From: Candidatus Hydrogenedentota bacterium
GTDB lineage: Bacteria > Hydrogenedentota > Hydrogenedentia > Hydrogenedentales > CAILVY01
NCBI GenBank assembly: GCA_903837785.1
Contig: CAILVY010000270.1
Span: 1-64,000 of the forward strand
Reading direction: 5' to 3'
Length of the DNA: 64,000 nucleotides
Shown: piece after piece, positions 54,036 through 63,900 of the stretch
Numbering within the stretch: position 1 is the stretch's first letter
How the letters are laid out: every line of letters begins with the position of its first letter
The notes under the pieces: generated by a model
The model's database searches: none
Seen by the model: only the letters and a program-made list of their open reading frames with translations
Told to the model about the DNA's origin: nothing
Position numbers and translations under genes: made by a program

Positions 54036-58052
<4,017 letters not shown>

Positions 58053-58210
58053 ATTCCCACCTTTCTTAGATTCCCACGAGGCCCAGACTAGCATCTTCTC
58101 CCTGGAAAAGGCACGTTCTCCGACAGCATCGCCGGGTTTCTTCCAAACGGGCGCTTGACGGTTGGGGAAGCCGGGGGCACAATTAGGGGACATGATGAGG
58201 ATGTCTCCAC

Positions 58211-59182
58211 GTGATCGTGCAATGTGAATTGTGCCCGAAGGGGTGTGTGATCAAGCCGGGTCAGAGCGGTGAATGCCGGGTGCGGGTGAATCTGGACGGG
58301 AAGCTGACGGCGGTCACGTATGGGTATCCGTGCACGGCGAATGTGGACCCGATTGAGAAGAAGCCGCTGTTCCATTTTTTGCCGGCGACGCCGACGTTCT
58401 CGCTGGCGACGGTGGGCTGTAATCTGCACTGCAAGAATTGTCAGAACTGGGAGATTTCGCAGGCCGACCCGGAGCATGCCGAGGCGTCGCCGCTGCCGGT
58501 GGAAGAGATAGTGCCGATTGCGAAACAATACGCGTGCCGGTCGATTTCGTTCACGTATACGGACCCGTCGGTGTATTACGAGTATGCGCTCGATGGCTGC
58601 ATTGCGGCGCGGGACGCCGGGCTCAAGACGGTTCTTGTGACGGCGGGTTATCTGAATCCGGAACCGGTGAAGAAGCTGTACAGGCATGTGGATGCCGCGC
58701 GGATTGATTTGAAGTCGATGTCGGAAGGATTTTACCGGGACGTGTGCGGGGCGACGCTGGCGCCGGTGCTCAACACGTGCGTGCTTGCGAAATCGCTCGG
58801 GAACCATCTAGAGATCATCAATCTGGTGATTCCAACCTTGAATGACAGCGACGAGGACTTGAAGCAGTTGTGCCGATGGATCGTCCGGCATCTTGGCCAG
58901 GACACGCCGCTGCATTTCTCGCGGTTCTTCCCGCAACACAAGATGCTGCATCTTCCGCCGACGCCCGACGAGACATTGAATCGCGCTTGCGCGATAGCGC
59001 AGAGCGAGGGGCTTGCATTCGTCTATCAGGGGAATGTGCGGCATCACGCGTCGGAGAATACATATTGCCCGGCGTGCCACGGGCTGTTGATCGAGCGGGT
59101 GGGTTTCCAGGTGATGCAGAACAAGCTCTTGAACGGCACATGCCCGGGCTGCGGCACGGCGATTCCAGGAGTGTGGTCATGA
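58211..59182 (+). CDS. amrS: AmmeMemoRadiSam system radical SAM enzyme (GTG start)
   Basis: CELCPKGCVIKPGQSGECRVR, ATVGCNLHCKNCQNWEISQ, SISFTYTDPSVYYEYALD, LHFSRFFPQHKM, N.YCPAC. Confidence 0.95.
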   Translation: MIVQCELCPKGCVIKPGQSGECRVRVNLDGKLTAVTYGYPCTANVDPIEKKPLFHFLPATPTFSLATVGCNLHCKNCQNWEISQADPEHAEASPLPVEEIVPIAKQYACRSISFTYTDPSVYYEYALDGCIAARDAGLKTVLVTAGYLNPEPVKKLYRHVDAARIDLKSMSEGFYRDVCGATLAPVLNTCVLAKSLGNHLEIINLVIPTLNDSDEDLKQLCRWIVRHLGQDTPLHFSRFFPQHKMLHLPPTPDETLNRACAIAQSEGLAFVYQGNVRHHASENTYCPACHGLLIERVGFQVMQNKLLNGTCPGCGTAIPGVWS

Positions 59183-59343
59183 CTCGGCGGATTTTCATCA
59201 CGGTTGCGCTGGGGCTCCTGGCGCCGGTAGGCTGGATGACGCCCAAGCGCTGGCGCGAGGCGTTGCGTGCGCGGCGCTATCCGGGTCCGGTGCGTCCGCT
59301 GGACCGGGACGCGCTGGGGCAGCCGGGCAAGTGGGCGGGCTGA
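59179..59343 (+). CDS. 54-aa small protein translationally coupled to amrS (below ORF-track size cut-off)
   Basis: ATGA overlap with amrS stop; manual translation MTRRIFITVALGLLAPVGWMTPKRWREALRARRYPGPVRPLDRDALGQPGKWAG*; RR + hydrophobic N-terminus. Confidence 0.7.
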   Translation: MTRRIFITVALGLLAPVGWMTPKRWREALRARRYPGPVRPLDRDALGQPGKWAG

Positions 59344-59361: not shown

Positions 59362-60987
59362 GTGAAACACATGCGAAGGGTCGTGTACTCCTTGCTTCCG
59401 CTGGCGGTGGTGACGTTTCTCGTCTTTCCCTACGCGAAGCCGGTGCTGCGAACGTGGTGGTCGGCCGAGCGCTTGCGCGAGTCTGCCCATGCCGCGCCGC
59501 AAGACGCCGCGCCGCAAGCGCCGGGTGAGAAGCGGGTGCTGGAATCGGCCCTGGCCGGCTCGTGGTACACGGGCGATCCGGCGGCGCTGAGGGCGGAAAT
59601 CAAAGGCTATTCCGATAAGGCCGAGGGGCCGGTGCTGGAGCACGTGCAGGCGCTGATTCTGCCGCACGCGGGCTATCGTTATTCCGGGCAGACGGCGGCG
59701 TACGGGATCAAGCAGATCGCGGGGAAGCCGTTCAGCCGGGTGATCGTGATGGGGCCTAGCCATCACGCCGCGCTGGAGAACCGGGTGTGCGTCAGCGACT
59801 TCACGCACTACAGGACGCCGCTCGGCGAGGTCCCGATTGACTGGGCGTTTGTGGCGGCGCTCCGGCAGAACGAGCTGTTTCAAAGCGTGCCGAGCGCGGA
59901 ACGGCCGGAGCACAGCGTCCAGATCGAAGTGCCGCTCCTGCAGGAGGCGTTGGGTTCATTCAAGCTCGTTCCGTTGGTTCTCGGACAATTGGACGCGGCC
60001 ACAGCGCGCGCGGCGGGCGAGCGCATCGCATCGCTGATTGACGAGGAGACGCTCGTGATAGCCAGCAGCGATTTTACGCACTACGGCGCGAACTACGATT
60101 TTGTGCCGTTCACGGAGAAGATCGAAGAGAACCTGAAGAAGCTCGATATGGGCGCGGTGGAGCAAATCACGGCGAAGGATCCCGAGGGATTCCTGCGCTA
60201 CGTGGGAAACAGCGGGGCGACGATCTGCGGGCGAGCGCCTATCGCCGTGCTGCTTTCGATGCTTCCCGGGGCGAGCGCGGCGCACTTGCTGCGTTATGAT
60301 ACGTCGGGTAAGCTGACGAACGATTTTTCGATGAGCGTGAGCTATTGCGCCATCGCCTTCACCGGAAAATGGCCCCGGGGGGCCAAGGCAGAGGAGGCCG
60401 TGAAAGCCGTGGAAGCCGTGAAAGAGCCGGAACTCACCCCGCAGGACAAGGAAGCGTTGCTGGCGATGGCGCGCAAGACGCTGGAGTATGTGTTCGAACA
60501 TCGGAAAGCGCCGACGCCGAAGGATCTGGGCATGGAGGTTACGGCCGCCATGAAGCCGATCCGGGGCGCGTTCGTCACGCTGGAAGAACAGGGCGAACTG
60601 CGCGGCTGCATCGGCGACATCTTCGGCGAACGGCCGTTGTACGAGGCGGTCATCGGCAATGCGATCAATGCGGCATTCCGTGACTATCGCTTTCCGACGC
60701 TCGAAGCCTCGGAGTTGCCGCGGATCGAGATCGAGATCAGCGCGCTGACGCCGTTGCGATCCGTGGCCTCGTTCAACGAGATCGAGGTGGGGAAGCATGG
60801 GGTGTTGCTGACGAAAGGATCGAGCCGGGCCGTCTTCCTGCCGCAAGTGGCGCCGGAACAAGGCTGGGATCGCGACACGATGCTCAATCATCTCGCCCAG
60901 AAGGCCGGTCTTCCGCAGGATGCGTGGCGGGACGGCGCGAAGTTTGAGGTTTTTGAAGCGATCGTCTTTGGCGAGAAGAAGCCGTGA
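59362..60987 (+). CDS. Membrane-anchored AmmeMemoRadiSam protein B (Memo) - protein A (AMMECR1) fusion
   Basis: N-terminal TM; Memo: LAGSWYTGDPAALRAEIKGY, LILPHAGYRYSGQTAAYG, VIVMGPSHHAAL, VIASSDFTHYG; AMMECR1: RGAFVTLEEQGELRGCIGDIFGERPLYEAVIGNAINAAFRDYRFP. Confidence 0.93.
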   Translation: MKHMRRVVYSLLPLAVVTFLVFPYAKPVLRTWWSAERLRESAHAAPQDAAPQAPGEKRVLESALAGSWYTGDPAALRAEIKGYSDKAEGPVLEHVQALILPHAGYRYSGQTAAYGIKQIAGKPFSRVIVMGPSHHAALENRVCVSDFTHYRTPLGEVPIDWAFVAALRQNELFQSVPSAERPEHSVQIEVPLLQEALGSFKLVPLVLGQLDAATARAAGERIASLIDEETLVIASSDFTHYGANYDFVPFTEKIEENLKKLDMGAVEQITAKDPEGFLRYVGNSGATICGRAPIAVLLSMLPGASAAHLLRYDTSGKLTNDFSMSVSYCAIAFTGKWPRGAKAEEAVKAVEAVKEPELTPQDKEALLAMARKTLEYVFEHRKAPTPKDLGMEVTAAMKPIRGAFVTLEEQGELRGCIGDIFGERPLYEAVIGNAINAAFRDYRFPTLEASELPRIEIEISALTPLRSVASFNEIEVGKHGVLLTKGSSRAVFLPQVAPEQGWDRDTMLNHLAQKAGLPQDAWRDGAKFEVFEAIVFGEKKP

Positions 60988-63900
60988 GACGGAGCGGAGG
61001 GGGCGGACGGCACGCGCCGTTTCTGTTGGCCGCTTCGCTCGGTTTCTTCTCGATCGCCGCCCAGACGTTGCTCTTCCGCGACTTTTTGAGCGCTTTCGAG
61101 GGGACGGAACTTGCCATCGGGCTCTTCTTCGCCTCATGGTTCCTTTGGATTGCCGTTGGCGCGGCCCTGGCGCGGCGTTGCGGGGCGCTTGCCGGCGCGT
61201 TGCCGATGCTGTCGCTGCTGTATCTTCCCGGGTATGTCCTGGAGCATCACTTCATCCTGGCCGCGCGCGGATGGGCGGGCGTGGCGGCGTATGAGGCATT
61301 CCCGTATGCCTCCATGTTCGCGCTCTCGCTGATCGCCACAGTCCCCGTAAGTTTCATCACAGGATTCCTGTTTGCGCTCGCGTGCCGGTGGTGGGAGCAG
61401 TAACACGGCGCCGTTCTGCCTGCCGCGCGCGTGTACGTATTCGAGACGCTGGGTGCGGCGGCGGGCGGGTTGGCGGTTACGGGATGCCTCGTGCTGCGGG
61501 TTCCCGCGCAAACGGTAGCGCTGATCAGCGGACTGCTGCTGGCGCTGGCGATTATCCCCGCGTGGCGCTGCCACTGGCTTCGCTTCGTTCCGGCATTGTT
61601 GCTTTCAGGGGCGTTGATTCTGGGCGCAGGGGCGCAGTGGGCGCAGTATGACGCGCGTCATTCCTGGGGGCGCCTGCTGGACCCCGAATCGTATCGCGGC
61701 TCCTTTTCCACGGCGCAGGCGTCCTACGCCTACGGGCAACGCGGCGGGCAGTTCATCGTGATGTCGGCGGGCACGATCGCCGAGGCGCTGCCGAACGCGG
61801 AACACGGGGCGGAAGTGGCGGCGCTCGTTCTGGCGCAACGGCCGGAGAGCAAGCGCGTGCTTGTCATCGGGCCGGGGGCGCTGAGCCTCTGTCTGCAACT
61901 GCTTCGCCTGCCGCAGATTGAGTCCGTTCTCTGGAGCCATCCCGACCCGGAGTACGCCGAGACATTGCTTCGGGTGGTGCCGGAAGCGTTTCGGGGGGAC
62001 TTGGCGCGGTTCGCTACGCCGGCGATGGATGCGCGGGCGTTGTTGACGCGCGGCGCCGAAATGTACGACATTGCGGTGCTCAATCTGCCTGATGTGACGA
62101 CGCTTGCGCTCAATCGATATGCCACCCGCGAGTTTTTCGGCCTATTGAGGAAACGCCTGCCGCCGGACGGCGTGGCCGCGTTGCGCATCACGGCAGGAGC
62201 AAATGTGCTTGGGGGGGAACTTGCCAGTCTCGGCGCGTCCGCGCTGGCGACGTTCGGCAGCGTCTTTCCGCGGATTGTCCTCAAGCCGGGCGATGAAACG
62301 TGGCTGATGGGTTCGGCGGGGGACAGGCTCAGCGAAGATGCGGACGTCTTGCGCGAGCGGCTTGCGGGGATGCCGGGCCTGTCCTCGATCTATCCGCCGG
62401 ACGGGCTTCGCTCGCTCTACGTGCCGGACCGCATCTCGTTTCAGCGCGGGCGCTACGAGGCGGCTTTGCGGCAGTCTGGCGCGGAATCGCTCCTGAACAC
62501 GGACGAGCATCCGAAGGCGCTTCTGTTGGCCTTGATCGTGGCATGGCGTCAGTCCGGTTTGAGAGGCGTGTCGGCCAATCTGTCTGCGATCCAGCAGATC
62601 CTGTGCTTCACGGCGATGGTGGCCTTTCTTGCGGCCCTGCTTGCGCGCGTTGAGTATCGCCGCCGATTTCCCGTGATCGCGGAGCACGGCGCGAAAGAAG
62701 AGACGGGGTTTGGCATCGGCTATCTGATCTTTTCCACGGGTTTGGCGGGCATCGGCGCGAGCATCATGATCTTGTTTGCGTTTCAGTCGCGCTTTGGATC
62801 GCTTTCGCTGCACCTCGGTCTTTTCTCGGCGCTGTTCATGGCGGGTTCGTGTGCCGCGGGGCACGCGATGGAACGCCTGCTGGCGCGAGACGCCCTGCGT
62901 CCGGAGCGGCTTTCGCGAAGGATAGTCGTGCTGCACGCCGCGCTGATGTTGTGCGCGGCGGCCTGGGTATACAACGGGGGCGGGCTCGTCCTCGCGCTCG
63001 CCATGGCGATTGCGGGCGGGCTCACGGGCAGCTACTTCCCGCTGGCAGCGCACCGCCTGCGCGCGGCGGGCCGGGATGCGCTGGCTTCAGGGGGAGCACT
63101 CGAGAGCCTGGATCATGTGGGCGCGGCCCTGGGCGGCCTGTTCACAGGATTGCTGCTCTTGCCGTTCCTCGGGATGCGGTGGCCTTCCGTGATCTTTGCG
63201 TTGCTGCTGGCGCTGAACGTGCCGCTGCCCGTCAAGTCGAGAAGCACGGCACTGCCTGGGGTGGATGCAGTGGATCGCGCGATGATGCCTTGGCGGCTTG
63301 CGGTGGGGCTCGGCTGCGTGCTGCTGCTCAGTTCAGCGTATGCGGCGCGGCTGCATCGGGCACAGGAAGGGCAGCGTTTCGAGGAGACTGCCCGATCGAT
63401 GCTCGGGAATGTGGCCGTGAGCAGGCATGATGCGACGATCAAGGATGGCCGCGCGATCACGCACTTCACGCCTGCGGCGTCGCCTTCCGGTCCGTGCGCT
63501 TTTGATGCCACGCCGCTGGCGCCGCGCGTGCGCGGCTACGGCGGGCGCATGCCGGTCGCCGCGGCCGTGCGGCCGGACGGAACACTCGAGGAGGTCCGCA
63601 TCCTCGAGTCGCGGGAGACGCCGTCCTATCTCGAACTCGTGCGGCCCTGGCTTCGGCAACTGCGGGGCAAGCATCTTGGCGACCCGGCGGCCTATGAGCA
63701 TCTCGACGGCGTAACGGGGGCGACGATCACGTCGAGGGCCGTGCTGGAAACCCTGCGGCAATCCGTCCCCGTTGTCGCGCGGGACGTACTGCATCTGCGC
63801 GTGGATGCGGCACTGTCCAACGCGCCGTCGCGCCGTGCAGACACGCAATTCCTGTGGCTGATCGGGTTCTTTGTTGCGGCGTTCTTGTTGCGGTACCGGC

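Follow-up and report, generated by a model that had tools for sequence, protein, structure and literature searches.

The proteins of the AmmeMemoRadiSam system are related to human MEMO1 and AMMECR1. In the library searched, no paper assigning a function to the bacterial system was found, and a search for AmmeMemoRadiSam with export, Tat or flavinylation turned up nothing about any small partner. NCBIfam family TIGR02811, “formate dehydrogenase region TAT target,” is named as a TAT target and, judging from that name, belongs with a redox enzyme region; its members are presumably under about 70 aa long, with a conserved C-terminus. Tat hitchhiker export is known for periplasmic [NiFe] hydrogenases and formate dehydrogenases (PMC10924467, citing Rodrigue et al. 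1999). NosR-type and ApbE-flavinylated electron-transfer proteins are treated in PMC8238504, a paper that uses neither the term Memo nor the term AMMECR1. Here we propose that a 54-aa protein encoded directly behind amrS is probably a detached Tat leader, or mini-subunit, that exports or anchors folded AmrS in trans as part of an extracytoplasmic AmmeMemoRadiSam system.

A 54-aa ORF coupled to a leaderless amrS

The window (the whole stretch of DNA analysed, 64,000 nucleotides) lies on contig C270 of a 7.3-Mb genome (G000), which reads as Hydrogenedentota-like by its EGEGEG repeats. The features at the locus are as follows.

58211..59182, + strand: amrS, leaderless radical-SAM enzyme of 323 aa, whose GTG start lies right at the MIVQCELCP core
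59179..59343, + strand: candidate Tat-signal mini-subunit ORF, 54 aa; ATG at 59179, stop at 59341-59343
59185..59196, + strand: RRIF twin-arginine motif (codons 3-6), with both R residues and the F unchanged in 19/19
59191..59238, + strand: hydrophobic h-region IFITVALGLLAPVGWM; helix 3-19 predicted
59278..59292, + strand: YPGPV motif, codons 34-38; kept in most Hydrogenedentota, Planctomycetota and Verrucomicrobiota members
59323..59340, + strand: PGKWAG at the C-terminus; its W and last G are unchanged in 19/19, and 48/58 proteins across phyla have an [LW]xG end
59362..60987, + strand: Memo-AMMECR1 fusion with N-terminal signal anchor VVYSLLPLAVVTFLVFPY; PF01875, PF01871, TIGR04336/TIGR04335
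60984..64000, + strand: NosR-like membrane protein; MFS/spermidine-synthase-like part, then FMN_bind with TGATIT

The 54-aa product is MTRRIFITVALGLLAPVGWMTPKRWREALRARRYPGPVRPLDRDALGQPGKWAG, and its ATG overlaps the amrS TGA in a shared ATGA. The coordinates, length, sequence and overlap recorded in a first-pass annotation of this DNA all proved exact on re-reading, and the neighbours named there, amrS (TIGR04337) and a Memo plus AMMECR1 fusion (TIGR04336/TIGR04335), were right: a profile search finds AmrS, AmmeMemoSam_A and AmmeMemoSam_B all at this locus. Only 18 nt separate the end of the small ORF from the start of the Memo gene, and the gene for the membrane protein starts at 60984 within the Memo stop (GTGA); the locus therefore looks like one tight transcription unit. 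The frame of the small ORF is open for 157 aa counted from an upstream GTG; in GC-rich DNA, frame length is no proof of a gene at 54 aa, and conservation therefore decides.

AmrS of the window scores 373 bits against TIGR04337 over profile positions 12 to 333 and thus lacks the first 11 positions of the model and a full-length N-terminus; most other AmrS matches to this profile start at positions 1 to 8. Its radical-SAM motif CxxxCxxC (CNLHCKNC) is intact. The N-terminus of the small protein combines a [ST]RRxFLK-like Tat motif (TRRIFIT) with a hydrophobic segment (VALGLLAPVGW), and the “RR + hydrophobic stretch” noticed earlier (TRRIFI plus VALGLLAPVGW) is thus a twin-arginine signal. Searches of Pfam and NCBIfam assigned the 54-aa protein to no family, the Pfam result meaning that it matches no curated Tat-signal profile either; Pfam TAT_signal (PF10518) matches 2/19 relatives weakly (best E 0.002) and also, weakly, the fused leader of the AmrS at locus L161. 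Folded alone with AlphaFold, the protein gave a low-confidence model (pLDDT 68) with an N-terminal helix and nothing further that was informative.

Several other observations concern the surrounding DNA and the genome. An in-frame TAA at 61401-61403 interrupts the MFS/FMN/ferredoxin gene (CRWWEQ*HGAVLPAARVY), and all 21 compared relatives read through at this site, e.g., CRWWEQEQELPPARVY in L101; the TAA may mark either a pseudogene or an assembly error. On the minus strand, 54036-58193 encodes a divergent leucine-rich-repeat protein of 1385 aa that has (EG)n repeats as spacers and, at its C-terminus, paired dockerin-like DGQVNLSELLRVIQFFNS repeats; translation probably begins in fact near 58053, with the signal peptide MCLNPFARII. 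A second amrS paralogue, at G000:C261:265-1260, has a cytoplasmic-type N-terminus (ELLESKTLPAASELTAVEGDGALRCLACGHRC), and this type is the sole amrS in many genomes of the phylum.

The small gene and the AmrS N-terminus

In tblastn searches of 68 genomes, good matches of the 54-aa peptide always adjoin amrS. The amrS genes found there are of several kinds, one of which scores highly and starts at profile positions 9 to 12; for this kind, to which the window's amrS belongs, a small ORF was found by position alone in 18/18 other Hydrogenedentota-like loci. These ORFs encode 55 to 65 aa, and their overlap with the amrS stop is 4 or 10 nt long. Across the 19 proteins selected by position, only five residues are invariant: R3, R4, F6, W52 and the last residue, G54. 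Codon position 3 was the most divergent in 6/6 pairwise comparisons, which indicates that the small ORF is a translated gene under selection. The first-pass annotation had named a lack of conservation of the peptide or its position as what would refute it; both are conserved, and its coupled, unannotated small protein stands. On this comparative evidence, the 54-aa ORF is confirmed as a real, widely conserved gene.

The small ORF is also found in at least eight other phyla, with 59 loci counted. Named bacterial genomes, scanned in the same way, yielded 80 amrS loci spread over many phyla; here again, an amrS whose start lies right at VxCxLCP has behind it a small ORF that opens with a twin-arginine motif. 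Of 118 loci, two were excluded and 116 were classified by the AmrS N-terminus. A small ORF accompanies 59/62 leaderless AmrS (those starting at VxCxLCP; 3 are without) and 0/54 AmrS with their own N-terminus, a near-perfect complementarity; in the latter class, automatic matches at two loci (L081 and L094) proved out of type on visual inspection and were discarded. Fisher P values (6e-30 over the 116 loci and 2e-18 in the genome_contigs set alone) overstate the independence of the loci, since on the AmrS tree the switch between split and fused occurs only about three times, a pattern pointing to a few events kept for very long rather than 60 independent ones. A later set of 30 amrS loci from Nitrospirota, the phylum of L132 (whose locus recurs in it as L209), gave a small ORF in 8/9 leaderless AmrS versus 0/21 others; the 8 include that of L206, which lies further downstream than the automatic limit. 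No small ORF was detected behind the leaderless AmrS of L117, L123, L138 and L208 (three Lentisphaerota/Kiritimatiellota and one from the Nitrospirota set); the partner may be encoded elsewhere, or AmrS may be cytoplasmic.

Where the small ORF is absent, AmrS has an N-terminus of its own, either an export leader and EAxFYEKLxG ahead of VxCxLCP or a cytoplasmic version that carries no export leader. The fused leaders are Tat (e.g., MVELNRRSFIKC) or Sec-like, and about half look like Sec rather than Tat signals, which is odd for an Fe-S enzyme: a Sec leader on an exported Fe-S radical-SAM protein would be unusual. Sec-like leaders were seen on the fused AmrS of L128, L144, L150, L157, L160 and L180. 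One natural Tat-AmrS fusion (L161, Zixibacteria) was folded by AlphaFold with 47 relatives, giving a mean pLDDT of 92. In this model, residues 50-62 (VEAKYYKKLEHKE) have a pLDDT of about 98, include a strand (55-57) and pack onto AmrS, and the leader and linker are at pLDDT 43 to 64; the high confidence of residues 50-62 suggests that this segment belongs to the enzyme fold. Among solved structures, pyruvate formate-lyase activating enzyme, in complex with AdoMet and a peptide, comes nearest, and it does so by sequence as well.

The C-termini of the small proteins fall into overlapping types. A check of the YPGPV..L....PGKW motif, proposed in the first-pass annotation, found it kept in most members from Hydrogenedentota, Planctomycetota, Verrucomicrobiota and Lentisphaerota, where the end reads YPGPxxPLDxxxxxxPGxWxG. 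Myxococcota have RPLxxxDLxxxxxLAG; Omnitrophota, Elusimicrobiota, Fermentibacterota and Pseudomonadota have EAxYYxxxxxLAG; and Nitrospirota have EAMFWRRL, most of them lacking a terminal Gly. Among 58 readable small proteins, Gly is terminal in 50 and an [LW]xG end is present in 48; an RR/KR motif was part of the detection rule in the genome_contigs loci, so that RR frequency there is partly circular, whereas Gly was not part of the rule and its frequency is not circular.

An EA-x-[FYW][FYW]-like motif occurs in 19/58 small-protein ends and in 26/54 AmrS N-termini (0.3 in shuffles of each). In many phyla the small protein consists of a Tat signal plus the strand missing from AmrS (EAMFWRRL or EAxYYxxxxLAG). 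In Nitrospirota, EAMFWRRVE or EALFWKRLS ends the small proteins, matching ARWWHxLPDGR, with which canonical AmrS begins; the small protein thus visibly bears the missing strand. The C-terminal part of the window's small protein, YPGPVRPLDRDALGQPGKWAG, is of the YPGP...WAG type and lacks EAxFY; what connects it with the EAxFY type is its position, its Tat leader and its [LW]xG end.

A further tail may be involved. The operon ends with a second small membrane protein (contig C270, 64483-64758; L181:7484-7759) that terminates in VDAGRMKSLIEEKRLSGHEADFYKPLPQ; of all sequences in the operon, its LSGHEADFYKPL most closely matches the motif at the N-terminus of AmrS. Elsewhere, an LSxHEAxFYxxL tail with the same motif as the fused-AmrS N-terminus forms the C-terminus of the FMN protein or of a neighbouring ORF. 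About half of the split loci have the LSxHEAxFY tail, and none of the fused loci does (three matches judged unrelated were set aside). Its distribution suggests a second docking tail on AmrS, and the 64483-64758 protein may supply the missing AmrS strand in the window operon.

Proposed export, or possible retention, of AmrS

The neighbouring genes point to the cell envelope. Memo has a Sec or lipobox leader in nearly all loci of the comparison. The NosR-like protein of the window fuses an MFS/spermidine-synthase-like part to FMN_bind, with TGATIT as its flavinylation motif, and two CxxxCP ferredoxin motifs; these motifs (Fer4_5) lie beyond the window, in a gene that ends at contig position 64539. 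The host genome encodes TatC and ApbE, and TatC is present in 22/24 other genomes carrying the small gene.

As the simplest account, we propose that the system contains a split enzyme, in which the AmrS leader and N-terminal docking segment would be encoded downstream as a separate, translationally coupled gene. AmrS would fold and take up its Fe-S cluster in the cytoplasm, and the folded enzyme would bind the C-terminal 20 to 25 residues of the mini-subunit. Since the leader is of the Tat type and AmrS is an Fe-S protein, we infer hitchhiker export: the Tat signal would carry AmrS out or keep it on the inner membrane, facing outwards. There, AmrS would work with the exported Memo-AMMECR1 protein and draw electrons from the flavin/ferredoxin NosR-like protein. 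A bolder version, to which we would give somewhat less than an even chance, is that a radical-SAM enzyme has been moved wholesale outside the cell in trans by a Tat signal plus its own detached N-terminal strand, to work there in an AmmeMemoRadiSam machine outside the cytoplasm that a flavinylated NosR-like protein would supply; the MFS/spermidine-synthase-like part of the latter may even handle SAM.

A radical-SAM enzyme at work outside the cytoplasm would come as a surprise, since SAM is regarded as a cytoplasmic compound. The supply of SAM to an exported AmrS counts against export and is the strongest reason to keep an alternative in which the RR-hydrophobic segment holds AmrS at the inner membrane face, the enzyme acting in the cytoplasm and passing product or electrons to exported partners. 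Such retention would place radical-SAM chemistry where the SAM that it needs is available, and it fits the short h-regions and the scarcity of clear signal-peptidase sites. However, a plain anchor needs no invariant RRxF, the fused relatives carry Tat or N-in/C-out Sec-type leaders, and Memo is exported in the same loci, and we regard retention as unlikely, although worth carrying forward.

Of the roles suggested for the small protein in the first-pass annotation, anchor comes close to a Tat signal/anchor subunit of AmrS, and substrate is unsupported: the small gene and an N-terminal segment on AmrS almost exactly replace each other, and elsewhere the equivalent segment is fused to AmrS in cis, as would be expected of a subunit and not of a substrate that is turned over. 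The substrate reading in its fullest form would have AmrS abstract H from the conserved C-terminal Gly (or modify W/Y) before the matured peptide is exported by Tat as a cofactor carrier. It draws on the frequency of that Gly (50/58), on the best solved fold being a glycyl-radical activase with a Gly peptide and on the suitability of Tat for cargo matured in the cytoplasm, but the small ORF is absent wherever AmrS has its own N-terminus, the equivalent segment is part of AmrS in the fusions, most Nitrospirota members lack the Gly and no protease or RiPP partner was seen near the gene (neighbours were searched for Memo, AMMECR1 and FMN parts), which together make it improbable. With the neighbours searched for Memo, AMMECR1 and FMN parts, a RiPP precursor seems unlikely as the main reading, given the complementarity with the AmrS N-terminus and a C-terminus that is conserved rather than variable; the other feature seen was a Tat leader. 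That the small protein is only a dedicated escort chaperone of AmrS, or a partner of Memo instead, seems very improbable: its [LW]AG end resembles the LAG at the Memo domain start, but the ORF follows the AmrS N-terminal state and lies directly behind amrS in L067 and L071, where no Memo was detected in the stretch examined. An origin from the Memo leader (AG shared before FYP/SWY, the LAG likeness, the masked locus L129) was not adopted and is recorded as an observation only. A chance ORF kept for translational coupling alone would suit the short length and overlapping start and is scarcely credible, being refuted by residues kept across phyla and by third-position codon divergence.

Comparison with known systems

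Like the described AmmeMemoRadiSam systems (TIGR04335/TIGR04336/TIGR04337), the window locus has all three defining proteins. Unlike the standard form, its AmrS is N-terminally truncated and paired with a separate Tat protein, its Memo-AMMECR1 carries an export leader and a NosR-like flavin membrane protein is linked. In many phyla, AmrS is paired with a Tat mini-subunit or fused to a Tat/Sec leader, Memo is a lipoprotein or anchored and the next gene encodes a periplasm-directed flavin electron donor; these features move the search for the function of the system to the cell envelope. An extracytoplasmic AmrS is directly testable, and with it the cellular place of an uncharacterised conserved system. 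A rule for annotation follows: where amrS starts at VxCxLCP, its stop codon should be checked for a small Tat ORF.

The NosR-like protein of the window resembles NosR-type/ApbE-flavinylated electron-transfer proteins (PMC8238504) in its FMN_bind with [ST]GA[ST]x[ST], its membrane ferredoxin and the presence of ApbE in the genome, and differs in the fused MFS/spermidine-synthase-like part and in its partners, AmrS and Memo. One small protein matches TIGR02811 at E=0.07, a score too weak for the same family, and the enzyme is another one. As in Tat hitchhiker pairs, the signal-less and signal-bearing proteins are encoded side by side, and the signal on one partner would carry a folded, cofactor-containing partner without a signal, as proposed here from sequence. 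In contrast to those pairs, the signal partner is only 39 to 81 aa, barely more than a leader and docking segment, and the partner that it is proposed to carry belongs to the radical-SAM enzymes. AmmeMemoRadiSam systems and Tat hitchhiker pairs are already known; the proposed Tat mini-subunit of AmrS would be a variation on both.
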